Under the pieces are notes generated by a model. It did no database searches and had not been told where the DNA came from. It saw only the letters and a list, made by a program, of their open reading frames with translations. From a virus, in the IMG/VR virus record IMGVR_UViG_3300046703_000080, positions 1 to 61,421 of that record: a stretch of 61,421 nucleotides of DNA. One strand, 5' to 3'. The translations under genes were made by a program, and so were the position numbers. Within the stretch, counting starts at the first letter, position 1, and every line of letters starts with the position of its first letter. This document shows positions 967-36,745 of this stretch, in pieces.

Positions 967-1178
967 CCCGTTGCCCCTACTGCGACGGGCCGGTGGACGC
1001 CAAAGGTCACCGCATCATCCCCGGCGAGATCCGGCTGCCTCTGTGCCTGCGGTGTGGGCATGGGCCGTGGATTCCCCGCATGACGGTAGGCGAGGGCGGC
1101 CGGATCGTGCTGGCTCGACCGAAGAGATGCGCGAAGTGTAAGTCGATTGTGTGGGACAAGCCCAAGGAGAAATCGTGA
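954..1178 (+). CDS. Double CxxC zinc-ribbon protein, 74 aa
   Basis: I chose GTG at 954, overlapping the previous gene's end; the frame is open further upstream but only as antisense-like sequence. Three Cys pairs are visible: CPYC near residue 6, CLRCG in the middle and CAKCKS near the end, with the phrase GPWIPR between them and VWDKPK at the tail. This suggests a zinc-ribbon fold for nucleic acid or protein binding. The second half is clearly related to the minus-strand protein at 59310-59621 (CLRCGWGPWIPR, CPKCKSRVWDKP). The stop overlaps the exonuclease GTG. Confidence 0.7.
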   Translation: MPEVARCPYCDGPVDAKGHRIIPGEIRLPLCLRCGHGPWIPRMTVGEGGRIVLARPKRCAKCKSIVWDKPKEKS

Positions 1179-2116
1179 CGGAACAGGAATTTCAGCAAGA
1201 GAGATTACAGGGGATTGGGGCAAGCGATGTTCAGGCCGTCCTCTCGTTACCCCCGTGGGGTTGCTCCAAAAAATTATGGATGCAGAAGCGTCAGGTCCCG
1301 CCCGACTACGAATCCCCGGAGAACAAACTCTTCGCCCGCGGGCACAAGCTCGAAGCGCTGGTCGCCGACGAGTACGCCGAGGCGACCGGGCGAGAGTTGA
1401 CAGAGATGCCGATGCAGCGGCACAAGGAGCACCCGGAGTTGATGGTCCACATTGACCGGGGAATCACGGCGCCGGAGCGACCGGAACCCGGAGTCCTCGA
1501 GATCAAGACCGTCAACAGTCAGATGTTCTACAAGATCAAGCGGGAGGGGCTTCCGCACGGGTACGTGGCCCAACTCCAACATGCCATGGCAGTCACCGGC
1601 GCGAAGTGGGGATCGTGGGCTCTGTTGTGGGCCGATGGCTGGGAACTGCGCTACTGGGACGTGGAGCCCGACCCGGAGCTTCAGGCGATGCTGGTAGAAG
1701 CCTCCGTGAAGTTCTGGGTAACCGTCCAGAAAGGTCCGATGCCGGCGGCCCTGGAGGCGTCAGACCCTCGCTGCGCGCGCTGCCCTTGGAGGACATCCTG
1801 CCAGGGCGAAGCGCTCAAGGCGGCGTGCAAGGATTCGGTGGACGGCGGATTCGATCCTTCGCTGGGCGCATTGGCCGAGGAATACTTCGAGGCCAAAGAG
1901 ATGCGCGACGAGGCCGACTCGCTGTTTGAGGGCACGCAGGAGCGGCTGAAGGTGGCGCTGGGCAACCGGACCTCCACGGAAACGATCGGCGCTCGTATCT
2001 TCTGGAGGCAACAGATTTCAATGCGCTATGACACCGCTGCGCTCAACAAGATCCCCGGCATGGAAAAATACAAAAAGCCGAGCGTCTCTCGCCCACTTCG
2101 CGTCTTCGCTTTGTAA
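1175..2116 (+). CDS. YqaJ-type viral recombination exonuclease (PD-(D/E)XK fold), 313 aa
   Basis: Likely 5'-3' exonuclease that resects dsDNA for annealing-type recombination. Visible family marks: GASDVQAVL near residue 16, the Glu helix ARGHKLEALVADEY, an Asp in HIDRGI, the LEIKT catalytic strand near residue 108 and the QLQHAM motif near residue 133. A second half carries CARCPWRTSC, a Cys-rich patch reminiscent of the accessory Cys cluster of AddB/Cas4-type nucleases; only three Cys are obvious there. GTG at 1175 is preferred over the upstream TGG-frame ATG at 1151 because AAGGAGA at 1164-1170 sits just before it and it overlaps the previous stop. It is followed by the candidate annealing protein and an SMC-like ATPase, as expected of a phage recombination cassette. 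Confidence 0.85.
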   Translation: MTEQEFQQERLQGIGASDVQAVLSLPPWGCSKKLWMQKRQVPPDYESPENKLFARGHKLEALVADEYAEATGRELTEMPMQRHKEHPELMVHIDRGITAPERPEPGVLEIKTVNSQMFYKIKREGLPHGYVAQLQHAMAVTGAKWGSWALLWADGWELRYWDVEPDPELQAMLVEASVKFWVTVQKGPMPAALEASDPRCARCPWRTSCQGEALKAACKDSVDGGFDPSLGALAEEYFEAKEMRDEADSLFEGTQERLKVALGNRTSTETIGARIFWRQQISMRYDTAALNKIPGMEKYKKPSVSRPLRVFAL

Positions 2117-2132
2117 GTGAAAAGGAAAGGTT

Positions 2133-3386
2133 ATGGAACAAGAGCAAGCACTGGAAGTAACTCAACCGCACACCTTGGAACTGATCCAAAGGGCGGAGAT
2201 AGATCAACAAGTTTCAACGGCGAAGAAGTACCCGCGCGACCTCGCCAAAGTCAAAAGCAAGATGCTCTCCTTCGCCACGCTCGACGAGGAGACGGCCGAG
2301 AGTTGCTTCTACACTCTCAAGCGAAAGAGTGGCGACGGCGACGACGAGAAGAAGACCATCCAGGGTCCATCGGTTCGGCTGGCTGAGATCGCCGTGGCCT
2401 GCTACGGAAACCTGCGCGCGGCCAGCCGCATCATCGACAACGACGGCAAGGCGATCACCTCGCAGGGGGTCTGCCACGACCTCGAAAACAACACCCTGGT
2501 CTCGGTCGAAGTGAAACGCCGGATCACCCGGAGAGACGGGCGCACGTTCTCCGAAGACATGCAGGTGGTCACCGGAAACGCGGCCAACTCCATCGCCTTC
2601 CGTAACGCCGTGTTCAAAGTCATCCCAGGTGCCCTGACCAAGCCGGTGTATGAGGCTGCCAAGCTGGTTGCGGTCGGCACTGCCAGCACCTTGCAGGTCA
2701 AGCGCGACAGGATTCTGAAGCGCCTGAACCAGATGGGCGTGGAGAATCCGCGCATCCTGGCGGTTCTCGAGAAGGCCAGCATCGAGTTCATCAATCTTGA
2801 CGACCTGGAAACCCTGATCGGCCTGGGCACAGCGATCAAGGACGGAGACACCAGCGTTGACGAAGCCTTCCCGGTCACGATGGCGACGGCGACGGAGACC
2901 GCCAAGGAGAAGTTGAAGTCGAACCTGCGGAAAGTCTCGCAGAAGGACGTTCAGGTTTCACGGGCGCATGAAGCGGCGAAAGGTGGAGAGCCCCCCGAGG
3001 GTGATACGAAAACCCCGCCGCCGGGTACATCGAATGGTCCGGCGACCGCCGCCGAGGGAGCGCCATTGGCCGACTCCCCGCGCCCACCAGTTCAGGCCGA
3101 CGACTCGGGGGAGGGTCAGCCCGAAGGGAAGGGGGCGGGAAAAGCCACGCAGGACTTCAGTCGTCTGCCGGTGCTTGACCGCCTCCCTAACCCCGCCTCT
3201 TCCGTCGAGGAGGATTACTGCAACGTCAACGGGCGAATCTACCAGTTCCTCAAGGAATCCTGGATGTTCTACGGTCCGGCAACCAAGCCCGCGGCTGAGG
3301 AGCCGCCTGCCGACAAGCTGAAGTTCGGCGAGAAGCCGCCCGCCGCGAAGAAGGGCAAAGGTTCGGATGCGGGGGACTTCACATGA
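2133..3386 (+). CDS. Candidate single-strand annealing recombination protein, 417 aa
   Basis: Preceded by AAAGGAAAGG at 2119-2128. The first ~230 residues are compact and conserved-looking (GPSVRLAEIAVACYGN, VTGNAANSIAFRNAVFKVIP, YEAAKLVAVG); the remainder, about residues 260-350, is low-complexity Pro/Gly/Glu-rich, followed by a short acidic-aromatic C terminus. The fold is not obvious to me from sequence. Phage proteins with this GPS-R-AE motif directly after a YqaJ nuclease are usually treated as RecT/Rad52-like partners, so the assignment rests on position plus general resemblance. It could instead be a structural replication-associated protein. Overlaps the next gene by four bases. Confidence 0.5.
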   Translation: MEQEQALEVTQPHTLELIQRAEIDQQVSTAKKYPRDLAKVKSKMLSFATLDEETAESCFYTLKRKSGDGDDEKKTIQGPSVRLAEIAVACYGNLRAASRIIDNDGKAITSQGVCHDLENNTLVSVEVKRRITRRDGRTFSEDMQVVTGNAANSIAFRNAVFKVIPGALTKPVYEAAKLVAVGTASTLQVKRDRILKRLNQMGVENPRILAVLEKASIEFINLDDLETLIGLGTAIKDGDTSVDEAFPVTMATATETAKEKLKSNLRKVSQKDVQVSRAHEAAKGGEPPEGDTKTPPPGTSNGPATAAEGAPLADSPRPPVQADDSGEGQPEGKGAGKATQDFSRLPVLDRLPNPASSVEEDYCNVNGRIYQFLKESWMFYGPATKPAAEEPPADKLKFGEKPPAAKKGKGSDAGDFT

Positions 3387-4678
3387 AAATAGCCAAACTT
3401 CACATCGAAAACATCCTGGGCATCGAGGAGTTGGAGACCAAACTGGGGAACCTGACCGTCATCGAAGGCCAGAATGCCACCGGCAAAACTTCCATCATCG
3501 AGGCCATCAAGGGAGCGCTGGGGGGCGGCGAAGACGCCACGCTACTGCGGCGGGGGGCGGAAGTTGGAGAAGTCGTTCTCCTGATGGACAACGGCGAGAC
3601 CGATAGAATGCGGGTCACCGCAGACCGCACGACTCGTAAATGGATAGGCGCTGATGGCGTCGAGAAGAAGAAGCCGCAGACCATCATCGACGGACTCCTC
3701 AATAAACTCTCCTTCAACCCGGTGTCGTTTCTCACCGCTCCACGAGAGAAGCGCGTTCAGTGGCTCCTCGAAGTCCTGCCCATCACAGCAGACCCCAAGG
3801 AGATCGAGGCTTCCGCCGGCGTCCCCGTGCTGCCGCAGGACATCCGCCCGAACGCCCTGGACACCATCGAGTGCGTCAGGAAGCGCATGTACGACCAGCG
3901 TACAGGCACGAACCGGCTGGCCGACGAGAAGAAGAAGACGGTCTCGACGCTGGAGAGTTCGCTGCCGCCGAGCGGAGCTGATGCTGTTGGAGCATTGCAA
4001 GCGGTGAAGGCAGAGTTGGCGTGTTCCCAGGAAGAGTATCAGAAACTCTCCGAGGAACTGAAGACATTGTTGCAGTCCCGGCTCGACGAGATCCGCGAAA
4101 AGACTCACCTGCGAATCCAAGCGATCAAGGATGAGCAGATGGCTGCCGAACAGGTCGCGCGCCAGGATGAAGAGGCCACCCGCGCCACGCTGGAACAGGA
4201 ATGGGACCCGACGATCGACGCATCCCGCGAGGAGATCGCCAAACTCGAAGCTGCGGTAGTCCAGGCGGAGCGGGCACGCACGACGACAGAGATGATCTCC
4301 CGCTTCAAGGATGAGCAGGGGAAGGCCGAGGCGGAGTCTCTGAGCCTCACGGAAGGCTTGGGCCGGCTGGAGACGCTGAAGGGCGATCTCCTGAAGACCC
4401 TGCCGATCAAAGGCTACGAAGTCCGCGATGGTCAGGACTACAAGGACGGCATCCCCTTTGAGCGCGTGAACAAGGCCAAGCAGGTCGCCGTGGCGTTCCA
4501 AGTGGCGAAGCTACTCGCCAAGGATCTGGGCCTAGTGTGCGTGGACAATCTGGAGTGCCTGGACGCCGACACGTTCGCTGCCTTTGAGAAGGCGGCGTTG
4601 AGCAACAAGGAATTGCAATTCGTGGTGACGCGGGTCACGGAAGGCCCGTTGACGATCGAGACACAAGGGGGAGAGTAA
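3383..4678 (+). CDS. SMC/RecF-like AAA ATPase, 431 aa
   Basis: N-terminal ABC-type ATPase half with Walker A at residues 29-37 (GQNATGKTS), a central coiled coil rich in Glu/Lys/Ala (about residues 185-320), and a C-terminal half with a Walker-B-like strand (GLVCVDNLECLDADT). The short coiled coil and total length fit RecF/RecN-like or Sbc-type phage ATPases, not full SMC proteins. Role inferred: DNA end processing or recombination with the exonuclease and annealing protein upstream. ATG at 3383 overlaps the preceding stop (ATGA). The signature motif between the two halves is not clear. Confidence 0.8.
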   Translation: MKIAKLHIENILGIEELETKLGNLTVIEGQNATGKTSIIEAIKGALGGGEDATLLRRGAEVGEVVLLMDNGETDRMRVTADRTTRKWIGADGVEKKKPQTIIDGLLNKLSFNPVSFLTAPREKRVQWLLEVLPITADPKEIEASAGVPVLPQDIRPNALDTIECVRKRMYDQRTGTNRLADEKKKTVSTLESSLPPSGADAVGALQAVKAELACSQEEYQKLSEELKTLLQSRLDEIREKTHLRIQAIKDEQMAAEQVARQDEEATRATLEQEWDPTIDASREEIAKLEAAVVQAERARTTTEMISRFKDEQGKAEAESLSLTEGLGRLETLKGDLLKTLPIKGYEVRDGQDYKDGIPFERVNKAKQVAVAFQVAKLLAKDLGLVCVDNLECLDADTFAAFEKAALSNKELQFVVTRVTEGPLTIETQGGE

Positions 4679-5221
4679 GTGAACAATCTGCCAGAAGCGC
4701 TGGAAATCAAAGAGGCGACGGTCGAAGATTGGACCCATCGCCACACTGAAAAAGGCCTGAAGATGCACTTCAGCGTTCGCGGAAAACTGACGCCGGAACT
4801 CGCCGCCGCCCTGGGTTGCAAGTTTGTTTACGAAGGCGACGTCGACGGCGTGAGCTTGTCGCACGAGTTCAAGGAGACGGAAATCTTCATGCCATCTCCG
4901 GCGGGTGATGGAAGCGGCTGCGGGTTCTTCCCCGATGTCGTCTACAAGTTCAAGGTCGCCAAGCAGGATGTCGGCTTCTCGCTGCAATTCCTGGTGCATG
5001 TCTCAACGCGTATCGAAGAGTTGCACGAATTGCTCAAAGGGTACGACGGTGCCGGCGGCCTCGAGATCCAACTGCGCTCGCGGCAGGGCGATCTGTTCGA
5101 CGGCGGAACGCGGGTCGAGATGGCGGGCGACCAGGAACCTGTATCCGCGAATCTGACCGGGGAGGCGCTGGAGAGACACGAAGCCGTTGCCAGTCGGAAG
5201 GTCAAGGCCATCCGTAAATGA
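4679..5221 (+). CDS. Hypothetical protein of the recombination block, 180 aa
   Basis: GTG start immediately follows the ATPase stop, with GGGGGAG at 4668-4674 as a ribosome site. The product is mixed alpha/beta with an acidic character, a sequence KGLKMHFSVRGKL near the start and SRQGDLFDG near residue 135. No family recognised. Its position as the last gene before the modification operon, and four-base overlap with the next ORF, suggest co-expression with the recombination genes; a ssDNA-binding or ATPase-partner role is possible but not shown. Confidence 0.65.
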   Translation: MNNLPEALEIKEATVEDWTHRHTEKGLKMHFSVRGKLTPELAAALGCKFVYEGDVDGVSLSHEFKETEIFMPSPAGDGSGCGFFPDVVYKFKVAKQDVGFSLQFLVHVSTRIEELHELLKGYDGAGGLEIQLRSRQGDLFDGGTRVEMAGDQEPVSANLTGEALERHEAVASRKVKAIRK

Positions 5222-6402
5222 AACTCGGCGACGTAGCAGCGACCTGCATGATGCTCGGGGCCACTGAGGAAGCGGAGACGTGCCTGAAGATGGTCCTGGC
5301 GGATCGTCCTGACGACGAACAGGCGCTTCTGAACTACGCGACCCTGTGCCGCCGGACGAACCGCCTGGAGAAGGCTATCGGCCTGGTCTCCAAGTATCTC
5401 GACAGCCACAAGGAGATCAGACCGGAAGCCTGGCTAACCTTCGGCCTGCTGTGCGAGGACTTCGGCAAGTTCAAAGAGGCGGCCGGAGCCTACGGTAAGG
5501 CGCTCGCCAAGGAGCCGGGCGACCAGAATACCGCCATCGGCTACGGCAGTTCCCTGATGCGCCTGCAACGCTTCGACGAAGGGTTCCCTCACTGGGACTA
5601 CGGTCGCTTCATGTCGGCATGGCAACCGATTCCGGGTATCGGCATCTGGAACGGCGCCGACCCGAAGGGCAAACGCATCCTGGTCATCCGAGAAGGTGGC
5701 TATGGCGACGGCATCATGTTCGCCCGCTGGATTCCGAAGTTGATCGAAGCCGGCGCGGAGATCGGCTTCTTTGTGTGGGACTCGCTCCATCCTCTCCTTG
5801 CGAACCTTGGGTGCAGGCTCATCGGCGAGAAGGACCCCATTGACACGACGGAATGGGACTTCTGCTGTTCGCTCTTGAGCCTGCCCCGACTTTGCGGAAT
5901 GCACGCGCTGGAGGACATTCCCGAGCCGGTCACCATCTCCGGCGTGGAGCCTCGCAAGCCTGAGGGGATCCAAACTGTCGGCCTGTGTTGGGCGGCAGAG
6001 GAAAACGGAGAGAGCCGGAAGCATCGGTCGATGACGCTGGCGGACATCGAGCCCCTGAAGTCAACCGAGAAAATCTTCTGTTCGCTTTGCCCTGGAATCG
6101 CGGCCCCGGATTGGGTTCGGCCGCACACGGCTGGAAAGCAGGGTTGGGCCACCGACGCGCGAGTGATCGCCGGTCTGGATCTGGTCATCACGGTTGACAC
6201 CGCGGTCGCACACCTGGCAGGCAGTATGGGCGTTCCGACGTGGCTGCTGCTGCCGATGTACAGTTCGTGGCAGTGGTTCACCCCGGAAACCTTCGCCTAC
6301 ACGACGCCCTGGTACAAGTCCGTGAGGGTCTTCCGGCAGAAGGACGCGATCAAGTGGGATGGAGTCGTCGAGGAAGTGGAGGTGGCGCTCTTAAATGCCT
6401 GA
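5218..6402 (+). CDS. TPR protein with GT9/GT41-like glycosyltransferase domain, 394 aa
   Basis: Residues ~1-120 are two to three tetratricopeptide-like helix pairs (EAETCLKMVLADRPDDEQA, KFKEAAGAYGKALAKEPGD). The rest resembles bacterial ADP-heptose/GT41-like transferases: RILVIREGGYGDGIMFARW starts the first Rossmann fold and ITVDTAVAHLAGSMGVPTW is the family's C-terminal nucleotide-sugar motif. The likely reaction is transfer of a sugar from an NDP-sugar to a protein or glycan acceptor; donor and acceptor cannot be read. ATG overlaps the preceding stop and the end overlaps the radical SAM gene by eight bases, so it heads an operon of modifying enzymes. Confidence 0.8.
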   Translation: MKLGDVAATCMMLGATEEAETCLKMVLADRPDDEQALLNYATLCRRTNRLEKAIGLVSKYLDSHKEIRPEAWLTFGLLCEDFGKFKEAAGAYGKALAKEPGDQNTAIGYGSSLMRLQRFDEGFPHWDYGRFMSAWQPIPGIGIWNGADPKGKRILVIREGGYGDGIMFARWIPKLIEAGAEIGFFVWDSLHPLLANLGCRLIGEKDPIDTTEWDFCCSLLSLPRLCGMHALEDIPEPVTISGVEPRKPEGIQTVGLCWAAEENGESRKHRSMTLADIEPLKSTEKIFCSLCPGIAAPDWVRPHTAGKQGWATDARVIAGLDLVITVDTAVAHLAGSMGVPTWLLLPMYSSWQWFTPETFAYTTPWYKSVRVFRQKDAIKWDGVVEEVEVALLNA

Positions 6403-7078
6403 GATCACTACCGTCTTCCTCGATTTCACGACCGCCTGCAACCTGTCTTGCCCAAACTGCTGCTGCCGGATTCCAGAGCGCAAGGGGATTCACTACCCCT
6501 ATTCCTACTTCGCTGAACTTGCAGGCTGGATCTACGGCATCGACCGTGTGGACCTGACTGGCGGAGAGCCTACATGCCATCCGCAGTTCGCCGAGTTCGT
6601 GCCGAGGCTCAAGGCCCTCTTCGGGTGTCGGTTGCTCACGATGGAGACAAACTGCTTCAAGGCCCGCGAGTACATCGACATCTTCGACCGCTTCGACTTC
6701 ATCCGCCTGGGCCGGTATCAGTCCAACACCGAGGAAGTCGATTGGGTCATGTCGCACCACAGGTCGGCCTGGCAACAGAACAACGGGGCTTGTGTCGAGA
6801 CGGCGGACCCGGTGGACGAGAACAACCACGTTTCCATTGATCGCCGAGGCTCTGGGCAGCTTTGCACCTTGGAGAGCATCGGCGAGCACGTCATCTACAC
6901 GGACGGAAAGTTCTACCCGTGTCGATTGGGATTGGCAGTTCCCGGGGCGGTCGGTATCGAGCCCTGCGAGGACTGGCGCCAGAAGGTCATGGAGCTGCCG
7001 ATCCCTTGTTGGAACTGCCACTTCAGTCCAGATGAGAACCGGGCAGTGCTTGGATTCCCGAAAGGATCGCCGAAATGA
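6395..7078 (+). CDS. Radical SAM protein with SPASM-like C-terminal Cys, 227 aa
   Basis: Canonical CX3CX2C cluster at Cys15, Cys19 and Cys22 (ACNLSCPNC) plus LTGGEPT at residues 54-60, the SAM-binding GGE motif. Several Cys near the C terminus (FYPCRLGL, GIEPCEDW, PIPCWNCHF) suggest an auxiliary Fe-S cluster as in SPASM/twitch enzymes. Such enzymes modify peptides, sugars or other small substrates by radical chemistry; the substrate cannot be told. Short for a full SPASM enzyme. It sits between a glycosyltransferase and an FkbM methyltransferase and overlaps both neighbouring ORFs, so it probably acts in the same pathway. QueE was considered, but no other queuosine-type gene is present. Confidence 0.85.
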   Translation: MPEITTVFLDFTTACNLSCPNCCCRIPERKGIHYPYSYFAELAGWIYGIDRVDLTGGEPTCHPQFAEFVPRLKALFGCRLLTMETNCFKAREYIDIFDRFDFIRLGRYQSNTEEVDWVMSHHRSAWQQNNGACVETADPVDENNHVSIDRRGSGQLCTLESIGEHVIYTDGKFYPCRLGLAVPGAVGIEPCEDWRQKVMELPIPCWNCHFSPDENRAVLGFPKGSPK

Positions 7079-7362
7079 AATGTACGCTCTGTAAGTGCCT
7101 GAACATCATTAAGGAGTTGGAAAAGCATCCGAACGAAAGCGGATTCTTACAGTTGGCCCGCAAGGTGGAGGCTTTTATCCACGAGCACGAAGGTACAAAC
7201 ACCCTCTGCGACGAGCACCGCATTCCGTTGCGGTTGAACGTCGATGTCCACTCTATCTGCAACTACGTGAACCAGGTACGCCGAATGGCTGTGGATCTTC
7301 ACTCTGGAGTAAAGCACGCGGCGAACTACGAGAGTGCTAAGGCCATGATGATGGTGAGGTGA
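7075..7362 (+). CDS. Hypothetical protein with N-terminal CxxCxC, 95 aa
   Basis: ATG overlaps the radical SAM stop (ATGA). The N terminus MKCTLCKC could bind metal with the later Cys/His (TLCDEHR, SICNYVNQ). Mostly alpha-helical. No family recognised. Because it lies inside the enzyme operon it may be an accessory or carrier protein of the radical SAM enzyme, which is inference only. Confidence 0.6.
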   Translation: MKCTLCKCLNIIKELEKHPNESGFLQLARKVEAFIHEHEGTNTLCDEHRIPLRLNVDVHSICNYVNQVRRMAVDLHSGVKHAANYESAKAMMMVR

Positions 7363-7365
7363 CAA

Positions 7366-7947
7366 GTGTATTCACAGTGCGGAGAAGATGACATCGTTCT
7401 CGGGATCTTTGGCTCCTACGTTGGCCGTTTCCTGGACATCGGGGCGCACGACGGAACTTACCTGAGTAACACGCTGGCACTGGTCGAGCGCGCCTGGTCC
7501 GGTGTGCTGGTCGAGGCGAACCCGCTGACGTTCTCCCGGCTCTACGAACGGCACGGAATGAATCCAAAGCTCACCTTGGTCAATGCGGCTGTCGGCCTGG
7601 AATGGAAACTCACGAAGTTCTGGCCGGCCACAAAGGACGACGGCTTGAGCACAACCGAAGCGACGCAGCGAGAGAGCAGAGAGGCTGAGGCGGCCTACGG
7701 GGAACCCTATCGAGTGGCGATGCTCCCTGTCTCGAAGCTGGAAGAATACGGTCCTTTCGATTTTGTGAGCATCGACACCGAGGGAACGAGCGTGGATCTG
7801 CTCTTCTCGCTTCGATGGGTTCTTCCGAAGGTGATTTGCGTTGAGCACGATGGCCGAATCCAGCACTGCATTGACTGGGCGGTGTTCCAAGGCTACCACC
7901 TCGCCCACCAGAACTCGATCAACCTGATTTTTGAGAAGAGGCCCTAA
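7366..7947 (+). CDS. FkbM-family SAM methyltransferase, 193 aa
   Basis: GTG start three bases after the previous stop. Typical FkbM layout: YSQCGEDDIVL, then FLDIGAHDGTYLSNT as SAM-binding motif I, VLVEANPLTFSRL as motif II, and FVSIDTEGTSVDLL, where the family has the D-x-E-G element. FkbM proteins O-methylate sugars or small molecules. Together with the flanking transferases it suggests synthesis or decoration of a methylated glycan. Length fits a minimal family member. Confidence 0.88.
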   Translation: MYSQCGEDDIVLGIFGSYVGRFLDIGAHDGTYLSNTLALVERAWSGVLVEANPLTFSRLYERHGMNPKLTLVNAAVGLEWKLTKFWPATKDDGLSTTEATQRESREAEAAYGEPYRVAMLPVSKLEEYGPFDFVSIDTEGTSVDLLFSLRWVLPKVICVEHDGRIQHCIDWAVFQGYHLAHQNSINLIFEKRP

Positions 7948-8337
7948 ATGCCATTTGACTGTACTCCCGTAATTCTTGACCTCGAACACAGAAAGGTGCT
8001 TTTGGATGAGGCGATTGTTCTCCTCCGATCCCTTTATGGAACGCCATCCATCCCGGCAGCGAAAGCCGATGGTCCTCGGAAGTACCAGAAGCTCCCGAAG
8101 GTGGCCGCTCCCAAGGAGGACGAGGGTGGCCGGTCCTCTCCAGTACAGGACGCTCTGCTCGTTGCCCTCAAGGCCGGACCGATGACTTCTATTGAGGCCT
8201 TCGAGGCGCTTAAGAAGGCTGGCGTGACCAGCACGGCAGGCAGCGTCTACCAACTTCTCAGAGTACTTCTCGCCAAGGGATCTATCGGTAAGACAGAGAA
8301 CGACGAAGGCCGGAACGCTTGGAAGTTGGCGACATGA
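7948..8337 (+). CDS. Small protein with predicted C-terminal winged helix, 129 aa
   Basis: Begins directly after the FkbM stop. N-terminal ~35 residues form a helix, a charged Lys/Pro/Glu linker follows, and residues ~75-129 look like a winged helix-turn-helix (SPVQDALLVALKAGPMT, GSVYQLLRVLLAKGSI). A DNA- or RNA-binding regulator is possible. No named family recognised. Its stop overlaps the next ATG. Confidence 0.6.
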   Translation: MPFDCTPVILDLEHRKVLLDEAIVLLRSLYGTPSIPAAKADGPRKYQKLPKVAAPKEDEGGRSSPVQDALLVALKAGPMTSIEAFEALKKAGVTSTAGSVYQLLRVLLAKGSIGKTENDEGRNAWKLAT

Positions 8338-9023
8338 CCCCTGACTTCTCCCTGCTGCACATCACAGCGCGGCTGCCTGACGGCTGGCGTCCAGCCTGGC
8401 TCGACTGGTCGCGGAAGTGTGCCACTTCAACGAATGTTGAGTACATCTTGGTAATCGACGAACGCAACAGACACGATCCGATCAGATTCGATGAAGAACG
8501 CAACTGGTGTGGCTTCCCAATAGTTCTGGGCGTCAACACCGGTCGCCCCTGCACGGTGGATGCCTGGAACACGGCGGCGCGCATGTCGCACGGAGACGTC
8601 CTCGTGGTGGTCGCCGATGACTGGTTTCCGTGCGATCGCTGGGATGAGGCGATTCTGCGCGCGATCCCCGACGTCACGAAGGAGGTCTGCGTGTGGCCGG
8701 CGGGCGAGAAGGCTACGGCCGGCCTGATGATCTGCCCGATCCTGACGCGCGCCTACTACGAGCGCCCGGGCCGCGGCGGTCACCCGAACGGGGAACTCTT
8801 CTACCCCCAGTACATTTCGGTCGGCAACGACGACGACTTCACTGAGGTCGCCCTGCGCGATGGCGTCATTGTCCGGATCCCCGAGGAGTTCGAGCACCGG
8901 CACCCAAGCGCCGGCACAGGGGTTTTGGTGGATGCGGTCTACAACTGGACCAATCGCCAGGAAGCCTGGGACCGGAAGATCGAAGTCCAGGCGCGGCGCC
9001 GGGCGGAGGGTTACGCGCGATGA
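8334..9023 (+). CDS. GT-A-like glycosyltransferase (GT2-type), 229 aa
   Basis: ATG at 8334 overlaps the previous stop; the ORF can be read five codons further up but without a better site. The first ~90 residues look like a GT-A nucleotide-sugar fold: LLHITARLPDGW, then YILVIDERN, an ARMSHGDVLVVVADDWFPC segment with an Asp-Asp pair where GT2 enzymes carry DXD. An acceptor-type region with NDDDF and HRHPSAG follows. Probably transfers sugar from an NDP donor; substrates unknown. Part of the modification operon. Confidence 0.75.
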   Translation: MTPDFSLLHITARLPDGWRPAWLDWSRKCATSTNVEYILVIDERNRHDPIRFDEERNWCGFPIVLGVNTGRPCTVDAWNTAARMSHGDVLVVVADDWFPCDRWDEAILRAIPDVTKEVCVWPAGEKATAGLMICPILTRAYYERPGRGGHPNGELFYPQYISVGNDDDFTEVALRDGVIVRIPEEFEHRHPSAGTGVLVDAVYNWTNRQEAWDRKIEVQARRRAEGYAR

Positions 9024-9799
9024 GCATACGCTTCCCCCTCGACGGCGCGCCGGAACTGCCGATCCAAGTCGAATGCAACGATGCAGAGATGCGCGAATTG
9101 CTGGCACGCACGACTGCCGCCTGGGAAAAGATGGGCCGCGAGGACCCTTACTTTTCAGTGGTCACCTCTCCCGACTACCACCTGGAAGCGTTCGAGCAGA
9201 ATCAGGCGTCCTTCTGGGATGTCGGGCGCCTCGAAGCCGAGCGCATGTTGATCTGGATGAAGCGCAACGGAGTCGAGCCGGAGGGAACCTGCCTTGAGTA
9301 CGGCTGCGGCGTGGGCAGGGTCACGTGCGGTCTCGAGGAATACTTTGAAAGTGTCATTGCCTGTGACATTTCGGTCGCGCATCTGAGGCTGGCGCTGGCA
9401 GTGATTGGGTCAACCGTTCGGATCATTCACATTCCCAACCTGGATGCCCTGAACTCGCTGCCAGGGTTCGACACGTTGTTCTCTCTCATCGTCCTGCAGC
9501 ACAACCCGCCGCCCATCATCGCGTTCATCCTGGACGTACTCTTGGACAAGCTCAACTGGGGCGGCCTGGCGTTCTTCCAGGTCCCGACCCTGATGCGAGA
9601 CTACACCTTCGACCTGCGCGCGTACCTGGACAACCCCAACAGCGGCTCCTGTATGGAGATGCACTGCCTCCCGCAGCGGTACATCTTCGAGATCGCCAGG
9701 AAGAACGGTTGCCGGCCGCTCGAAGTCTCGCAGGACGACCGGACAGGCTGTGAGTGCCACGTCTCGACGACGTTCCTGCTGGTCAAGGATCTGGTATGA
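9020..9799 (+). CDS. Class I SAM-dependent methyltransferase, 259 aa
   Basis: Motif I is EYGCGVGRVTCGL near residue 95, with a typical acidic motif II after it (VIACDISVAHLRLA) and a motif IV region SLIVLQHNPPP. An N-terminal ~85 residues precede the core, including EKMGREDPYFSV, which I have seen in methyltransferases of polysaccharide clusters. Substrate unknown. Overlaps both neighbours by four bases (ATGA). Confidence 0.82.
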   Translation: MSIRFPLDGAPELPIQVECNDAEMRELLARTTAAWEKMGREDPYFSVVTSPDYHLEAFEQNQASFWDVGRLEAERMLIWMKRNGVEPEGTCLEYGCGVGRVTCGLEEYFESVIACDISVAHLRLALAVIGSTVRIIHIPNLDALNSLPGFDTLFSLIVLQHNPPPIIAFILDVLLDKLNWGGLAFFQVPTLMRDYTFDLRAYLDNPNSGSCMEMHCLPQRYIFEIARKNGCRPLEVSQDDRTGCECHVSTTFLLVKDLV

Positions 9800-10605
9800 A
9801 GTCGATCTCGATGACCGCGTGGTGCAGAGCCTCGTACTCGGAGCTGGCACTGGACTCGATCACCAAGGCCAGGGGATACATGCCATGGCGTTTCTTCGCG
9901 TCCGTCGATGGTCCCATCCATCCGGACCAGGATACGGTTCTAGGCCACCAATGCGCGGAGGTTCGAGCGGTCTTCGAACGCCGCCACATGGGCCATCCTG
10001 ACGTGCGATTTCACCGAAACAACATGGGCTGCAACGCCAACATCTTCCAGGCCGTGCAGATGGCCTTCGATGCCGGAAGCGACTTCAACCTGCACGTCGA
10101 GGATGACATCGTGCTTTCCCCCGATGCGCTGGAGTTGAGCAACTGGTTCTATAACCTTCCTGAGCGCGACGAGTACGTCTGCCTGAACGTCTTCAGCGAC
10201 TGGCGAGACCATGGGAACCAGCCATTGGCCATAGCAGAATACTTTAGCTTCTTCCCTTGGGGCTGGGCCTGCACACGCCGGATGTGGGAGAAGTACCTGG
10301 CGCCCGAGTGGGACACCAAGCGGTTCGGGCCCACCGGCTGGGACTGGTCGGTCGGCATGACGATCCAGAAGCACGGTCTGAAGGTGCTACGCCCCTTCCT
10401 GAGCCGGGCTCTGAACATCGGCCGAGACCAGGGGCTACACATGAGTTCTGACCACTGGGAGAAGAACTTCAGTAACCAAGTAGTTTCGGACGGCTCCCAT
10501 GGCAAGGACTACTACATCGCGCGGCCCCTTCCCGCAGACTACGCGCAGCATCCAGACCAGTGGTATCTGGACGAGTTAAAGGCAGAACAGGAGGCAATCC
10601 GTTGA
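9796..10605 (+). CDS. GNT-I-like glycosyltransferase, 269 aa
   Basis: ATG at 9796 overlaps the preceding stop and is preferred over the upstream in-frame ATG at 9754. The core motif NLHVEDDIVLSPDALEL matches the EDD metal-binding element of GT13 (GNT-I/POMGnT) enzymes and of bacterial relatives. RFHRNNMGCNANIFQAV precedes it and a Trp-rich acceptor region (GPTGWDWSVGMTIQKHG) follows. Expected to use a metal-bound nucleotide sugar. The last enzyme of the operon, followed by small genes. Confidence 0.75.
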   Translation: MKSISMTAWCRASYSELALDSITKARGYMPWRFFASVDGPIHPDQDTVLGHQCAEVRAVFERRHMGHPDVRFHRNNMGCNANIFQAVQMAFDAGSDFNLHVEDDIVLSPDALELSNWFYNLPERDEYVCLNVFSDWRDHGNQPLAIAEYFSFFPWGWACTRRMWEKYLAPEWDTKRFGPTGWDWSVGMTIQKHGLKVLRPFLSRALNIGRDQGLHMSSDHWEKNFSNQVVSDGSHGKDYYIARPLPADYAQHPDQWYLDELKAEQEAIR

Positions 10606-11005: not shown

Positions 11006-11452
11006 ATGTTCTCGTTCTTTGTTCCAGGAATACCGAAACCAGGAGGGTCCAAGAGAGCCTTTGTAATACCTGGCACTAACCGGGCCATTATCACCGACGC
11101 CAATCCGAAGGCGAAAGACTGGAAGAACTCTGTATCTCAAGTGGCAACCGATCACGGCGTTACGCCACTTTCGGGACCACTTGAACTCTCGATCGACTTC
11201 ATCTTTCCGCGTCCGAAGGGGCACTACGGAACCGGCAAGAACGAAGATGTAGTGAAGGCTTCGGCGCCGAAACACCACACAGTAAAGCCGGACGCGACGA
11301 AGCTCACCAGGAGCACGGAGGACGCGCTGACGGGAATCGCCTGGCGGGACGACGCGCAGGTAGCCGTGCAGGCCATTTCGAAGTGGTACGCGGAGAGTGG
11401 AGAGACTCCCGGCGCGCGCATCACAATCGGCCAGCTTGGGAACCCTGAATGA
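11006..11452 (+). CDS. rusA: RusA-family Holliday junction resolvase, 148 aa
   Basis: Matches RusA in length and motifs: FFVPGIPKPGGSKRAF at the start, then KPDATKLTRSTEDALTG and AWRDDAQV, which supply the catalytic Asp residues (about residues 95-116). It cleaves Holliday junctions and branched DNA during recombination and before packaging. It fits the nuclease/annealing block at 1175-4678. The stop overlaps the next gene. Confidence 0.88.
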   Translation: MFSFFVPGIPKPGGSKRAFVIPGTNRAIITDANPKAKDWKNSVSQVATDHGVTPLSGPLELSIDFIFPRPKGHYGTGKNEDVVKASAPKHHTVKPDATKLTRSTEDALTGIAWRDDAQVAVQAISKWYAESGETPGARITIGQLGNPE

Positions 11453-12369
11453 AGCGTGGAACCCCTCGGCACCACAAAACGAAGGCTCTCGCTCGGATGC
11501 TGAAAATCCCAACTCCGTATGCCACCGGGCTCCTCGCAACCCTCTGGGATTGGGCGTCTGATTTCTGCCCAGACGGAGGAATTGGACGCCTCAGCAATGA
11601 GGAAATCGCGGAGGCGATGGGATGGCGAGGGGCGGCCAACAGAACCTTCGCAGACGAGTCACAGAGGCTCATCACAGCCCTAGTGGAGGCTCACTGGCTG
11701 GACACAGACGAGTCACAGAGGCCGAGTGAAGGGTCACAGAGGCTCATCATCCACGACTGGCCGGATCACTGCGAGAACACAATCCATAGAAAGCTGGCTC
11801 GGGCGGGTGTCAGGTTCGCTGATGGAAGTGTACCTAAGTTGACTGGGCTCAACGAGAAAGAGCGAAAACAGGCTGAGGAATTATTCGCGGAACGTGCTCA
11901 CGACGTGCTACCAAGCGTGCTCACGGCGTGCGCCCTGCCTTTGCCTTTGCCTTTGCCTTTGCCAGGGCCTATACCAAGGCCAGAGCCAGAGCCAGAGCCT
12001 TTGCGGTCGGCGGACATCCCTGGTTTTCTGGAAGTCTCCGAACCGACGACGGTAGACCAAAACTTCGAGAACTTGTGGCTGCTGTTTGTGGCATCCGGAA
12101 AGCCTCTCAACGACGAAGACAAACGCCGAGCTGCGACGAAATGGGTGATGATCCCGGTTCACGATCAGGACCGGGTGATCCGCTGGGCAGTCGAGCAGTT
12201 CAAAAGCGCTTGGCGCGATGCAGCGCACACACCATATCCGGCAAACGCGCTCGAAAGCAGGGGCTGGACCCGGGTGGCTGGCCGCCGAATCATTCCCGCG
12301 CCGGACCCAGTAAGCGACGAGGCCGCGCAGATCCTGGCTGAGAAGTTAGCACGGAGGACTCATGCTTAA
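11449..12369 (+). CDS. Phage replication initiator/replisome-organiser-like protein, 306 aa
   Basis: N-terminal ~100 residues look like a winged helix typical of DnaD/O-type phage replication proteins (GRLSNEEIAEAMGW, ITALVEAHWLD). A Pro-rich linker follows (LPLPLPLPLPGPIPRPEPEP, about residues 164-183), then a C-terminal domain with WLLFVASGKPLNDEDKRRAA that resembles helicase-loading regions. The linker is coded by hexanucleotide repeats, and two 16-bp iteron-like repeats lie just before them, so the gene may contain its own origin as lambda O does. Overlaps RusA and the next ORF. Confidence 0.65.
   Translation: MKRGTPRHHKTKALARMLKIPTPYATGLLATLWDWASDFCPDGGIGRLSNEEIAEAMGWRGAANRTFADESQRLITALVEAHWLDTDESQRPSEGSQRLIIHDWPDHCENTIHRKLARAGVRFADGSVPKLTGLNEKERKQAEELFAERAHDVLPSVLTACALPLPLPLPLPGPIPRPEPEPEPLRSADIPGFLEVSEPTTVDQNFENLWLLFVASGKPLNDEDKRRAATKWVMIPVHDQDRVIRWAVEQFKSAWRDAAHTPYPANALESRGWTRVAGRRIIPAPDPVSDEAAQILAEKLARRTHA
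11893..11931 (+). repeat. Two iteron-like 16-bp direct repeats inside the replication gene (candidate origin)
   Basis: cgtgctcacgacgtgc at 11893-11908 and cgtgctcacggcgtgc at 11916-11931 match at 15 of 16 bases and start 23 bp apart. Because 23 is not a multiple of three, the repeats are read in different frames and encode different residues, so the similarity is not explained by protein repetition. Confidence 0.6.
11936..11998 (+). repeat. Hexanucleotide repeats coding the Pro-rich linker
   Basis: A run of about 4.7 ttgcct units at 11936-11963 is followed by three cagagc units at 11981-11998. They encode Leu-Pro and Pro-Glu dipeptides and probably vary in number by slippage without changing the frame. 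Confidence 0.8.
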
Positions 12370-16200: not shown

Positions 16201-16514
16201 AGAAAGCAACAACTGCAAAGAAGTCTAACGCGCTACCTTACGTCATCATCAGGGCAGCGCAGGCCGGGTGTTTTGCGGGGTTCTTAAAGTCCCGCAAGGG
16301 AGCCGAGGTAGTTCTCAATCAAGCGCGGCGGCTGTGGTACTGGGACGGCGCGGCGACTTTGTCGCAATTGGCTCAAGAGGGAACATCGAAACCACAGAAC
16401 TGCAAGTTCCCTCCGCCAGTGGAGGAGATCACTATTCTGGGAGTGATCGAGGTACTGAAAACCTCAGAGCGGGCCTTGGTGTCAATCCAAGGGGTGGAGT
16501 CATGGCGGGCGTAA
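16197..16514 (+). CDS. DUF6948-like small phage protein, 105 aa
   Basis: GTG overlapping the previous stop. Motifs AGCFAGFLKSRKGAEVVL, ARRLWYWDGAATLSQLA, CKFPPPVEEITIL are those of a compact phage family that I know as DUF6948, of unknown function. Length fits a full copy. It is followed at once by a Gly-X repeat gene, a pairing that seems common for this family. Confidence 0.75.
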   Translation: MKKATTAKKSNALPYVIIRAAQAGCFAGFLKSRKGAEVVLNQARRLWYWDGAATLSQLAQEGTSKPQNCKFPPPVEEITILGVIEVLKTSERALVSIQGVESWRA

Positions 16515-16684
16515 CCGGCTCCGGCTACGGCTCCGGCTCCGGCGACGGCTACGGCTACGGCTACGGCTCCGGCGACGGCTCCGGCGACGGCTACGGCTCC
16601 GGCGACGGCTCCGGCGACGGCTCCGGCCACGGCCACGGCTCCGGCGACGGCTCCGGCGACGGCTCCGGCCACGGCCACGGCTAG
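16502..16684 (+). CDS. Gly-X dipeptide-repeat protein, 60 aa
   Basis: ATG at 16502 overlaps the stop of the upstream gene; the frame is read to TAG at 16682-16684. After MAGVTGSG every second residue is Gly and the intervening residue is Ser, Asp, Tyr or His (GSGDGYGYGYGSGDG). The DNA is a run of ggctcc/ggcgac/ggctac/ggccac hexamers. It resembles silk-like or disordered linkers; no catalytic feature. Copy number is probably variable by slippage. Confidence 0.65.
   Translation: MAGVTGSGYGSGSGDGYGYGYGSGDGSGDGYGSGDGSGDGSGHGHGSGDGSGDGSGHGHG
16513..16682 (+). repeat. Degenerate 6-bp repeat array (ggc-nnc)
   Basis: About 28 consecutive hexamers of the form ggcTCC, ggcGAC, ggcTAC or ggcCAC. It is strongly skewed and encodes the Gly-X protein on the plus strand; the minus strand would read Ala-Val-Ala-Gly. 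Confidence 0.9.
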
Positions 16685-16715: not shown

Positions 16716-17729
16716 ATGAGTGACATCCAGGAATACTACGGGCACTGCCCGATATGCGGGGAAACAATGACGACCGCGCATCCATATCCATGCCCAGGTA
16801 ACAGACACCCACTCTCGTCCTTGATTGAGGATGAGCGCAAGGTGATCGAGAACCAGGCAACCGAGATTGCCTCCCTTAGCCTCCGAGCGGAGACGGCGGA
16901 GCGGGAGAGGGATGCGGCACGGTCGGAAGAGAACGGTTGGCGGATCGGTTACAGGGTAATCCATCAGCGTCTTGCCGCCCTGGAGCGCGTGGCGGATGCT
17001 ATGGAGAAGTTGCTTGCTAATAAGGCCATAGCGCCCAGTTGGGAGTTTCTAGCGAAGGACGCCCTCTCCGCCCTCCAGCCCGCGCAGGCCCTGGTGGGTG
17101 ACGCGGACAATTACATCGCTTGGATGCACTGGCATGGGCCTACAGAGGATCGGCGGTTGTCTATGTGTGATTCTGACTCGCCTGGAGCGTTCAAGGTTTA
17201 CCGCCGCGCAGTACCGCCTGACCCAACCGTCAAGGAATCCTTGGCAACTGACGCGGTGCGCGAGCGTGCCGCAGCCGTGGAAACCGCACGTGGGGAGATT
17301 GAGCGACGGGCGAGAGTAGAGGCACTGGAGTGGGCAATTGCAATAGATGGCCACTTTCAGCCATGTGCGTGCCAATCCTGCAAAGACATCGAGGCCGAAC
17401 TCGCCCGCCTCGACCATCCGCGCTGCCAACTCCGGAGGCGTCGGGAACAACTGAGGCGCGCTCACCACCTGCACGCCGGCCTTGAGGGTTTCGCGCAGGG
17501 CGTCAAAGGCGGTAGGCTCGGGCGCCTGGTAGTAGGTCCGAGGTTCCGCCGCGGGCATGTCCAGCTTGACCGGAGGCGCAGCAATCAGCAGCGCCGGCGG
17601 AGCCTCGACCACCTTGGAATCGGTCAGAAACACAGAAACGCGCGACCAGTTAGACCCGTGCGCTGTTCGATGTCGATACGCGCCGGCCGTCTCGGTCGCC
17701 TTGAAGGTGTGGACGAAGTAGCTATCTGA
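16716..17729 (+). CDS. Accessory zinc-finger/coiled-coil protein; 3' part is antisense to the DUF3560 gene
   Basis: GAGAAACGGG precedes the ATG. The first ~230 residues look genuine: CPICGE, then a coiled coil (EDERKVIENQATEIAS, AETAERERDAARSEENGW), NYIAWMHWHG and CACQSCKDIEAELARL. From about 17410 onward the ORF is Arg-rich and is simply the complement of the convergent minus-strand gene. I infer a deletion that joined two convergent genes near 17400-17420 and removed the original stop. Function unknown; this type of coiled-coil protein is common in phage accessory regions. Confidence 0.6.
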   Translation: MSDIQEYYGHCPICGETMTTAHPYPCPGNRHPLSSLIEDERKVIENQATEIASLSLRAETAERERDAARSEENGWRIGYRVIHQRLAALERVADAMEKLLANKAIAPSWEFLAKDALSALQPAQALVGDADNYIAWMHWHGPTEDRRLSMCDSDSPGAFKVYRRAVPPDPTVKESLATDAVRERAAAVETARGEIERRARVEALEWAIAIDGHFQPCACQSCKDIEAELARLDHPRCQLRRRREQLRRAHHLHAGLEGFAQGVKGGRLGRLVVGPRFRRGHVQLDRRRSNQQRRRSLDHLGIGQKHRNARPVRPVRCSMSIRAGRLGRLEGVDEVAI

Positions 17730-18788
17730 GCACCGCTGGGCGCGCTTCCACTCTTCGGAGGTCATCTCCCGGCAACCCTCGGCGCGGAAGTTGCAGAGCG
17801 GCGCCGGCTTGGTCGCGCTCTTTACCTTCTCGGCGTCGCCTTCGGCCGGCGGTCGATAGTCCCTGATTTCCTCGACTGGCAGCGTTGAGCACCACCGGCC
17901 CAGCACGGAAACGCTGAACAGGGCGCCATCCTTGCGGTTCAGTTTGGTGACCACGTACCACTCACCGCCACCGGAAACGCGCCCGCCGGGTTGGATGTCG
18001 AAACGATCCGCCACCAGTCCCCCGCCCTCGGCGAGCATGGCGCGCTCGTACTCGAGGCGGTTCTCAAGGTGCTGTAGCCAGCGCTGGGCCCGGGCTTCGA
18101 TGGCCGGCAGGCTGGACACCTTCACCCAATTCCCGCCGCGGCCCTTCGGACCAACCCAGGCGTGCGGGACGTTTTGAGCGTCAGGCCCGAAGCCGTCAGG
18201 CTGCATGATCGTGGGGCAGTTTTCGTGCGGAGTGTAGCTCGCCCTGTAAGAGCGAATATCCGCTTCAATCCCCTTGATCCTGCGCGCGCGCACCGCCGGC
18301 AGCTCTTTGTACTTCGCCGCACGGATGGCGCCGGCGGCCCGGGACTTCCAATACTGCGAGGTCTCCCACATTTTGACGGCGCGCCTCATGCCGTTCTCGA
18401 TCTTCTCGGCATCCTTGCGCGCGTGCTTTTCGGAGTGATGGCCAACCAGGATCGGCTGGCCGAGTGGGATATTGTCAGCGATCGAGGAAACGGCCGCCCG
18501 GGCTGATTCAGCATCAGCGCGCCGGCTGTCGCTGTAATCTCCGAACCTCTCCGCGCGCTCCTCGGCTCGGTCGACCAGGCTTGTATCTTCGTCCCCGATC
18601 TCGCCGCACATCTCGGTTAGCAGGTCGGCGCGCTCGGGTGTCCACATTGGCGCCACGAACAGTTCTTGTTTCGGTGCCCAAATGAAGCCGGCCGCTTTCA
18701 CCTTGGCGTATTCGTCAGGATCCAGCCGGCAGGCGGGGTATAACCGGAGTTTGTTGTCCTCCGGCGAGTAAGTTGCTGTGTGTTCCAT
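17049..18788 (-). CDS. DUF3560-like protein, C-terminally truncated and run on into foreign sequence
   Basis: The N-terminal ~440 residues are DUF3560-like: MEHTATYSPEDNKLRLYP, GFIWAPKQELFVAPMW, ADNIPLGQPILVGHHSE and RIKGIEADIRSYRASY. At about residue 455 the phrase QLFPTPPELAARMVE appears; in full-length relatives this introduces a methyltransferase with an LEPSAGTG motif, but here it breaks off after MVEAGE and continues as the antisense of the convergent gene (about 17415 to 17049). The missing methyltransferase suggests a decayed or regulatory copy. Last gene of the leftward operon. Confidence 0.75.
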   Translation of the reverse strand: MEHTATYSPEDNKLRLYPACRLDPDEYAKVKAAGFIWAPKQELFVAPMWTPERADLLTEMCGEIGDEDTSLVDRAEERAERFGDYSDSRRADAESARAAVSSIADNIPLGQPILVGHHSEKHARKDAEKIENGMRRAVKMWETSQYWKSRAAGAIRAAKYKELPAVRARRIKGIEADIRSYRASYTPHENCPTIMQPDGFGPDAQNVPHAWVGPKGRGGNWVKVSSLPAIEARAQRWLQHLENRLEYERAMLAEGGGLVADRFDIQPGGRVSGGGEWYVVTKLNRKDGALFSVSVLGRWCSTLPVEEIRDYRPPAEGDAEKVKSATKPAPLCNFRAEGCREMTSEEWKRAQRCSDSYFVHTFKATETAGAYRHRTAHGSNWSRVSVFLTDSKVVEAPPALLIAAPPVKLDMPAAEPRTYYQAPEPTAFDALRETLKAGVQVVSAPQLFPTPPELAARMVEAGEFGLDVFAGLARTWLKVAIYCNCPLQCLYSRPSLNLPTCGFHGCGTLAHRVSCQGFLDGWVRRYCAAVNLERSRRVRITHRQPPILCRPMPVHPSDVIVRVTHQGLRGLEGGEGVLR

Positions 18789-31072: not shown

Positions 31073-31073
31073 C

Positions 31074-31655
31074 ATGATGATCGACTATCTCTGCCCCGAA
31101 TGCGGTCTGCACTTCGAGCGGTTCTTTCGCCAACCTCCCGAGCAACTGGAGTGCGACTGCGGCGCGACGGCGACCCGCACCTACGATCCGAACCTGACGC
31201 TACGGCGCCCGCTTCGTCTGGACGCCCAGCCGTTCGATCCGGTGGTGATCCACCGGGACGCGAATGGCAACATCCGGTTTCCCGGAAGCACGAGCGCACC
31301 CGTTCCGGAGGGATTCGAGCGAGTCGAGTTGCGGACCACACGCGAAGTGCGATCCCTTGAGCGGGAAGTGAACCTGCGAGAGAACGCCGCCCGCGAGCAG
31401 CACCTGGAACGCGAAGCCAACGCGCACGCGAACATGCGGCGAGACCTGCGCTCTGAACTGCGCCAGGCGATGCACGGCATGAGCGCCTACGGCCGCGACT
31501 TCGCGCGACACGCCATGGAAACGACAGAACAGCGGCAACGCGAAAAACAACGGCACACAGATGCCGGCTTCTATGTCGAAGCCTTCAGCCAAGACTCCAG
31601 CAACCGCGAGGCTCAAGTTGACGCCAGCACCGGCTGGCAGAGGAGAAAACGCTGA
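31074..31655 (+). CDS. FmdB-type zinc-ribbon protein, 193 aa
   Basis: ATG at 31074 (or 31077) begins right after TerL. The N terminus YLCPECGLHFERFF plus CDCGATATRTY is an FmdB/regulatory zinc ribbon often carried by phages between terminase and portal. It is followed by a charged coiled coil (REVRSLEREVNLRENAARE) and helical C terminus. Function unknown; may assist packaging. Confidence 0.65.
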   Translation: MMIDYLCPECGLHFERFFRQPPEQLECDCGATATRTYDPNLTLRRPLRLDAQPFDPVVIHRDANGNIRFPGSTSAPVPEGFERVELRTTREVRSLEREVNLRENAAREQHLEREANAHANMRRDLRSELRQAMHGMSAYGRDFARHAMETTEQRQREKQRHTDAGFYVEAFSQDSSNREAQVDASTGWQRRKR

Positions 31656-33694: not shown

Positions 33695-33912
33695 ACACCG
33701 TCCCCATCACCATCGGTCGGCAACTTCAGGTTCATCGGATCGAGCAATACGACAAAAGCGATCTAGCCGACCTGATGCTACTGGTGAAGTCCCAGAAACG
33801 TACCGGATCCCTGACTTTGCACATAACTTCAGGTGAAGTTTCAGTAGTCGAGTGGAAGCAAAAAGAGAAATCTCTTGACGCCAGAGCTGTTTTGTGTTCT
33901 AAGTTGAGTTGA
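33691..33912 (+). CDS. Small hypothetical protein after portal, 73 aa
   Basis: ATG overlaps the portal stop (ATGA). Beta/alpha mix: TIGRQLQVHRIEQYDKSD and a Lys-rich C terminus. Immediately followed by hairpins. No family recognised. Confidence 0.6.
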   Translation: MNTVPITIGRQLQVHRIEQYDKSDLADLMLLVKSQKRTGSLTLHITSGEVSVVEWKQKEKSLDARAVLCSKLS

Positions 33913-33916
33913 TGAG

Positions 33917-33931
33917 CCAACCGTAGGTTGG
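33917..33931 (+). terminator. Short perfect hairpin
   Basis: CCAACC-GTA-GGTTGG, six paired bases with a three-base loop just after a stop. No T-run follows, so it may help the next terminator or stabilise a 3' end. Confidence 0.45.
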
Positions 33932-33950
33932 GGTCGCATACCTCATACCT

Positions 33951-34009: not shown

Positions 34010-34021
34010 GGCCCAAAGGCG

Positions 34022-34252: not shown

Positions 34253-34253
34253 C

Positions 34254-34601: not shown

Positions 34602-34675
34602 CGCGCCCAACCTGGACCCTAGCCGCCGCAGCCGGCGCCTGATCCTCACGAGGCGCGGGAAGGCAAAGGAACCAA

Positions 34676-36730: not shown

Positions 36731-36745
36731 GGAAAGGAGACCACC

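Follow-up and report, generated by a model that had tools for sequence, protein, structure and literature searches.

The 61,421-nucleotide stretch of viral DNA analysed here (IMG/VR virus record IMGVR_UViG_3300046703_000080, positions 1 to 61,421; hereafter the window) carries a chain of eight genes (5218-10605, plus strand) for glycosyltransferase-like proteins, methyltransferases and a radical S-adenosylmethionine (SAM) enzyme. We propose that these genes form one co-transcribed cassette for building and tailoring a glycan and that the acceptor is a host surface glycan, remodelled early in infection, a reading to which we attach a probability of about 45%. The broader claim, that the cassette builds and tailors a glycan of some kind, appears likely. 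A single glycan pathway is the best reading because the partner families pair up repeatedly in other phages, and one cassette pathway is indicated because the overlapping gene chain is unbroken and the SAM, glycosyltransferase and iron-sulphur motifs are intact.

Layout and enzymes of the cassette

The cassette consists of eight intact open reading frames (ORFs) in a near-gapless chain, with junctions of -8, -4, +3, 0, -4, -4 and -4 bp between successive genes. At its upstream end, the first gene shares 4 bp with the preceding recombination gene; past the cassette, the chain runs on through two small ORFs to the Holliday-junction resolvase gene rusA. An initial annotation had described eight tightly packed genes between recombination genes and RusA, and both the packing and the placement were borne out, with an exonuclease and an ATPase upstream and RusA downstream. 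Two starts were amended: the sixth gene begins at ATG 8334 (replacing 8319) and the eighth at ATG 9796 (replacing 9754).

Profile and motif matches support the assignment of the first product as a tetratricopeptide repeat (TPR) and GT9-like glycosyltransferase, of the second as a radical SAM enzyme, and of the fourth, seventh and eighth as FkbM-family, class I methyltransferase and GT13-like proteins. In the predicted TPR-GT9 protein (P0001, 394 amino acids; 5218-6402), the TPR part matches Pfam TPR_19 (7.8e-11) and also human OGT; the GT9 part scores 21.0 bits, 1 bit short of the Pfam cut-off of 22.0, with a GD motif at D164 and a nucleotide-binding motif, DTAVAHLA, of the DTxxAHLA type. The GT9 part of a fused relative on an uncultivated phage contig (L067) reaches 44.3 bits, above that cut-off. 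The putative FkbM methyltransferase (P0004, 193 amino acids, GTG start; 7366-7947) exceeds the cut-offs of both Pfam PF05050 (4.3e-10, 40.4 bits; cut-off 22.7) and NCBIfam TIGR01444 (44.4 bits), and its motif I, LDIGAHDG, is intact, as is the motif I, EYGCGVG, of the putative class I SAM methyltransferase (259 amino acids; 9020-9799; Pfam Methyltransf_11, 23.6 bits, cut-off 21.2). The eighth product (P0008, 269 amino acids; 9796-10605) matches Pfam GNT-I at 1.9e-5 and 24.1 bits, 1.3 bits short of the cut-off of 25.4, and POMGnT1 at 3.5e-7 by phmmer, and it carries EDD and PWGWA motifs. It thus resembles the GT13 enzymes GnT-I and POMGnT1 in local similarity (residues 9-225 for POMGnT1) and in the EDD motif, but differs from them in lying just below the Pfam cut-off and in being apparently soluble, with no membrane anchor. 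Hydropathy analysis detected no convincing membrane-type segment in any of the eight proteins, the highest stretches falling within the GT9 and methyltransferase folds, and all of the cassette proteins look soluble.

The radical SAM gene (P0002, 227 amino acids; 6395-7078) matches Pfam PF04055 (Radical_SAM) at 36.5 bits (cut-off 29.5), with CX3CX2C at residues 15-22 and GGE at residue 56. Four auxiliary cysteines (C157, C176, C205 and C208) form CX13GX4C at 157-176 and CX2C at 205-208, and Twitch-type enzymes have the spacing CX9-15GX4C and CX2C. All seven cysteines are kept, as CX10GX4C and CX2C in the auxiliary part, in a relative of similar length from a metagenomic phage (L017; 29% in the alignment). 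Assignment to the Twitch type, with one predicted auxiliary cluster, is therefore well supported by the sequence. A model for such enzymes is BtrN, which oxidises an aminocyclitol alcohol and holds its auxiliary cluster with four cysteines (PMC9012708). The phage protein shares this cysteine pattern with the sugar-alcohol dehydrogenases BtrN and SpeY, from which it differs in being phage-encoded, and we infer that it may act as a sugar dehydrogenase. BtrN and SpeY act on small aminocyclitol or sugar antibiotics. It is possible, if doubtful, that the phage enzyme oxidises one of the sugars of a polymer-linked, O-methylated glycan that a GT9/GT13-type pathway assembles; we found no description in phages of radical SAM glycan editing of that kind. 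On a five-sequence AlphaFold model whose predicted local distance difference test (pLDDT) value of 52 is too poor to place the active site, the four best Protein Data Bank fold matches are SpeY chains (E 8e-5, TM 0.38, only about 16% identity), and BlsE and BtrN are also among the matches. In profile searches EpeE and MoaA outscore SpeY and BlsE, and viperin-like enzymes score comparably; identity as viperin itself was rejected (14.3 bits against a cut-off of 180).

Of the other products, the 95-amino-acid protein that starts with CxxCxC (P0003; 7075-7362) had no relatives in searches that included Pfam, PHROGs and NCBIfam, and the 129-amino-acid fifth product (7948-8337) has a weak winged-helix match (Pfam PadR, E 0.0016, below cut-off). 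The sixth product (P0006, 229 amino acids; 8334-9023) is a possible GT-A glycosyltransferase whose one transferase-like feature is an ADDW motif. It gave no family match in Pfam, PHROGs or NCBIfam, no significant profile comparison in hhalign and a single-sequence AlphaFold model of pLDDT 35; its best match, to the Corndog-cluster capsid-region transferase FC36, is weak (E 0.0078 in an 18-protein set). A motif scan returned nine loci, none related, and no relative was present in 50 whole phage records. Among the identities first given to the eight genes, those of the TPR/GT9-like, radical SAM (with its extra cysteines), FkbM, class I and GNT-I-like proteins thus stand, the winged helix is weak and the GT2-like glycosyltransferase is unproven. 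Where an enzyme family could be assigned, the sequence motifs of its active site or cluster are present, and a loss of active-site residues, raised at the outset as a possibility, was not seen.

Recurring gene pairings in other phages

The same eight-gene order, which the initial annotation had suggested looking for in other phages, was not found in a phage DNA search or in protein-pattern scans of viral contigs with P0001, P0002 and P0008, and the P0002 scan of bacterial genomes revealed no relative of the whole cassette. This absence is weak evidence because the scans reach close relatives only. An alignment scan of bacterial genomes with the radical SAM protein gave only generic matches, in the N-terminal third.

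Parts of the cassette do recur. A GT13 motif scan returned at least 120 loci, and the combined set holds at least 78 GT13-like proteins, including those of the window and of Microbacterium phage Magritte; the counts that follow are among the matches listed. The EDD motif is kept in 74 of the 78. A methyltransferase, detected with a profile iterated from P0004 and widened towards Methyltransf_24, lies within 600 bp of the GT13 gene at 41 of 78 loci and in 6 of 15 clusters at 50% identity, as against a methyltransferase anywhere at 2 of 44 control loci from the same scan. RusA occurs at 20 of the 78 loci (19 of them from one cluster) versus 0/44 controls, and the GT13-methyltransferase pair adjoins RusA in 19 of the 28 members of one cluster. 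Methyltransferases dominate the Pfam-annotated neighbours of 33 GT13 clusters (Methyltransf_24 in 14, FkbM in 4 and TylF in 3), the others being GT2 (9), RusA (5), GT17 (3), radical SAM (2) and sugar epimerases. The family is also common on uncultivated phage contigs (L036-L155). A GT13-like match exists in a single one of 50,697 deposited phage records, that of Magritte, so that a family widespread on uncultivated phage contigs appears to be almost missing from cultured phages.

The other enzymes have comparable partners. GT9 and GT13 are fused in one 611-amino-acid protein at two loci (L067 and L080), beside a SIS-domain phosphoheptose-isomerase-like gene. A radical SAM gene of the P0002 family sits between two transferase-like genes in L017, and in L153 the genes that come after GT13 encode KduI, a nucleotidyltransferase-like protein, a galactosyltransferase and a radical SAM protein. 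Cyanophage SynMITS9220M01 has a radical SAM gene that matches the P0002 profile at 3.7e-40; it forms one stretch with heptose genes and with genes for a carbamoyltransferase, a methyltransferase and GT25. On another phage contig (L013:4445-9407), the portal gene is followed by a radical SAM gene and then by genes for a glycosyltransferase, a protein resembling sugar acyltransferases and another radical SAM-like protein. TPR-GT9 relatives in phages share 24-35% identity with P0001, and the nearest (30-35%) lie in replication modules. A lone TPR-GT9-like gene precedes a small Holliday-resolvase-like gene (with an Hjc match in L159) and DNA polymerase A at L157:2049-6620, L158:280-2405 and L159:4144-8312.

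This repeated pairing of families in other phages, together with the intact motifs, supports the original suggestion that the block builds and methylates a glycan. The accompanying view that it is unlike known cassettes survives in part: although the radical SAM step is unusual, members of its family also stand beside transferases in L017 and SynMITS9220M01.

The proposed glycan acceptor and competing explanations

The cassette is flanked upstream (1151-5221, plus strand) by genes for a RecE/YqaJ exonuclease, a phrog_3657 protein, an AAA_23 ATPase and an unknown 180-amino-acid protein, and downstream (11006-12369, plus strand) by those for RusA and a replication initiator; a tyrosine integrase is also among the downstream genes. 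These flanks suggest that the cassette belongs to a temperate phage and that its transcription is most likely early. In the pathway that we propose, the TPR-GT9 enzyme would start or branch a chain on the acceptor at the cytoplasmic side, using a host-made, ADP-heptose-like nucleotide sugar as donor, and the GT13-like enzyme, probably with the sixth product, would lengthen it. The FkbM and class I methyltransferases would O-methylate the glycan, and the Twitch-type radical SAM enzyme would oxidise or otherwise rearrange a sugar ring carbon. The acceptor would most likely be a lipid-anchored surface glycan of the host, of the lipopolysaccharide (LPS)-core type, exported by host machinery, and the changed surface might then bind neither this phage nor its rivals (superinfection exclusion).

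The host surface is preferred as acceptor because of the early placement, the similar placement that recurs in other phages and the glycan-binding-type domains (F5/8C, laminin-G and malectin) of window proteins outside the cassette. In LPS-core assembly, peripheral GT9 enzymes act at the cytoplasmic face before host export, so a cassette of this kind would need no flippase. Cyanophage sugar clusters have likewise been interpreted as surface modifiers (PMC7824862).

Several observations weigh against this reading. No nucleotide-sugar synthesis gene, lipid-carrier transferase or flippase was found in the window (the cassette and 65 other ORFs), and no promoter-like site was found inside the cassette. 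The TPR and GT13 likenesses are to protein-directed enzymes. For the radical SAM protein, the structural model is poor, and the profile matches include MoaA, viperin and peptide-modifying enzymes (EpeE/YydG). The closest set discussed in the literature, a methyltransferase, two glycosyltransferases and an N-acetylglucosamine (GlcNAc) transferase in the Corndog cluster, has been interpreted as a means of capsid modification (PMC4351075).

The strongest alternative is that the cassette glycosylates virion proteins, the TPR-GT9 enzyme priming a capsid or tail protein in the cytoplasm, the transferases extending the chain, and the methyltransferases and radical SAM enzyme decorating it. The cassette has no gene for an export step and its proteins all seem soluble; the TPR part resembles OGT and the GT13-like protein resembles POMGnT1. 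In the Corndog cluster the O-methyltransferase, two transferases and GlcNAc-transferase lie between portal and protease, and such modification has been invoked for unusual capsid peptides (PMC4351075). The capsids of Che8 and Rita are reported to be glycosylated, and in phage ctDrO704 the TPR-glycosyltransferase and FkbM genes lie between the capsid and head-stabilisation genes. The cassette, however, lies in the recombination and replication region, away from the structural genes. The same region houses the TPR-GT9 genes most closely related to P0001 and a large group of GT13-methyltransferase pairs. We consider virion glycosylation a serious but somewhat unlikely alternative.

Alternatively, the genes may be unconnected morons that accumulated at an early site prone to insertions and that serve no common pathway, which we regard as improbable. 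The exact gene order was found nowhere else in scans that reach close relatives only, the 95-amino-acid and winged-helix genes are orphans and the sixth gene lacks detectable relatives. This is countered by the tight translational coupling of the genes, by the partner families, which recur together two or three at a time elsewhere and so do not look like the scattered, unrelated acquisitions considered in the initial annotation, and by base composition. Third-position AT skew is negative in all eight cassette genes (-0.19 to -0.02) and positive in all eight flanking early genes (+0.08 to +0.26), as if the cassette had been acquired as a unit; this contrast fits such an acquisition but is not diagnostic of it, because the late genes overlap the cassette range. 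By codon usage, the distance between cassette and early genes lies at the upper edge of the gene-sampling null.

Nucleic acid had been named beside host surface and virion as a possible target, and of the three it is the one now disfavoured. A hypermodified, glycosylated nucleobase on phage DNA (or a modification of RNA) that evades nucleases would suit the placement among recombination and replication genes, and methyltransferases and radical SAM enzymes have roles in nucleic-acid hypermodification. Such a target is nevertheless highly unlikely because the window has no base-hydroxylating or hydroxymethylating enzyme: no thymidylate-synthase-like hydroxymethylase, TET/JBP dioxygenase, base kinase or known DNA glucosyltransferase was found among its 65 other ORFs, and the transferases resemble lipid- or protein-glycan enzymes. 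T4-type DNA glycosylation was rejected because these parts are missing. Finally, it hardly seems credible that the cassette produces a small secondary metabolite or a modified peptide, the 95-amino-acid cysteine protein serving as radical SAM substrate: this small orphan ORF does lie directly 3' of the radical SAM gene, peptides are frequent substrates of SPASM/Twitch enzymes and EpeE/YydG is among the profile matches, but no recognition element of ribosomally synthesised and post-translationally modified peptides, no protease and no exporter could be recognised in the window proteins, and the transferase-type genes point to a glycan.

Known systems, phage genome and host

Glycan cassettes and methyltransferase-transferase pairs are already known from phages, as are radical SAM genes in the sugar clusters of cyanophages; what is new is the combination of a Twitch radical SAM enzyme with the GT13-like family in the absence of nucleotide-sugar genes. 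The cassette resembles phage glycan-modification clusters in joining glycosyltransferases and tailoring enzymes in one operon, and the cyanophage and jumbo-phage sugar clusters (P-SSM2, SynMITS9220M01) in its several transferases and methyltransferases and, for SynMITS9220M01, in a radical SAM gene beside methyltransferase and GT25 genes. Those clusters encode heptose or other nucleotide-sugar synthesis, kinases and epimerases, whereas no epimerase/dehydratase, sugar kinase or nucleotidyltransferase was found in the cassette or the 65 other window ORFs, and they belong to T4-like cyanophages and jumbo phages rather than to a temperate phage of about 61 kb. The Corndog cassette is a comparable four-gene methyltransferase/transferase unit with 4-8 bp overlaps; it lies between portal and protease, lacks the radical SAM and TPR-GT9 genes and is only marginally similar. 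The present cassette likewise has an O-methyltransferase and transferases as one unit, but not among virion structural genes. With gtrABC O-antigen conversion it shares a phage-encoded glycosyltransferase for surface change, but the GtrA flippase, bactoprenol transferase (GtrB) and membrane transferase (GtrC) were not found in the cassette or the 65 other ORFs by Pfam, PHROGs or NCBIfam, and lysogenic conversion of this type was rejected.

The structural module of the window occupies 28-59 kb, in which the terminase, portal, capsid and tail genes (28955-46630) are collinear with those of Tunturiibacter phage Tunturi_1 at about 29-38% identity. Since Tunturiibacter belongs to the Acidobacteriota, this collinearity suggests that the virus, one of soil bacteria, probably has an acidobacterial host. 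Tunturi_1, the closest structural-gene relative, has RusA and no relative of any cassette gene; transferases are reported to be common among the accessory genes of acidobacterial phages (PMC11924767). The two record ends (1-330 and 61159-61421) consist of the same 30-bp tandem repeat array (unit ATCGTCACAGCCGCACGTCGAGGCCAGGGG), which an ORF at 20-820 traverses as SSQPHVEA repeats, and this identity suggests a circular or complete genome of about 61 kb, cut within the array. Elsewhere, a GC-rich short-period tandem repeat (16516-16683; 12/30/42-bp units) overlaps an ORF at 16268-16684, and a large DUF3560 protein (17049-18788) is encoded on the minus strand, whereas nearly all other genes lie on the plus strand.

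Because the one cultured structural relative infects Tunturiibacter, effects of such cassettes on adsorption, superinfection or virion chemistry could be examined in a related host group. The GT13-like family paired with methyltransferases is a widespread and apparently unstudied trait of uncultivated phages. If our proposal is correct, a compact pathway of a mid-sized temperate soil phage would both build and chemically edit a glycan, and its radical SAM step would go beyond the addition or methylation of sugars to which simpler phages are confined.

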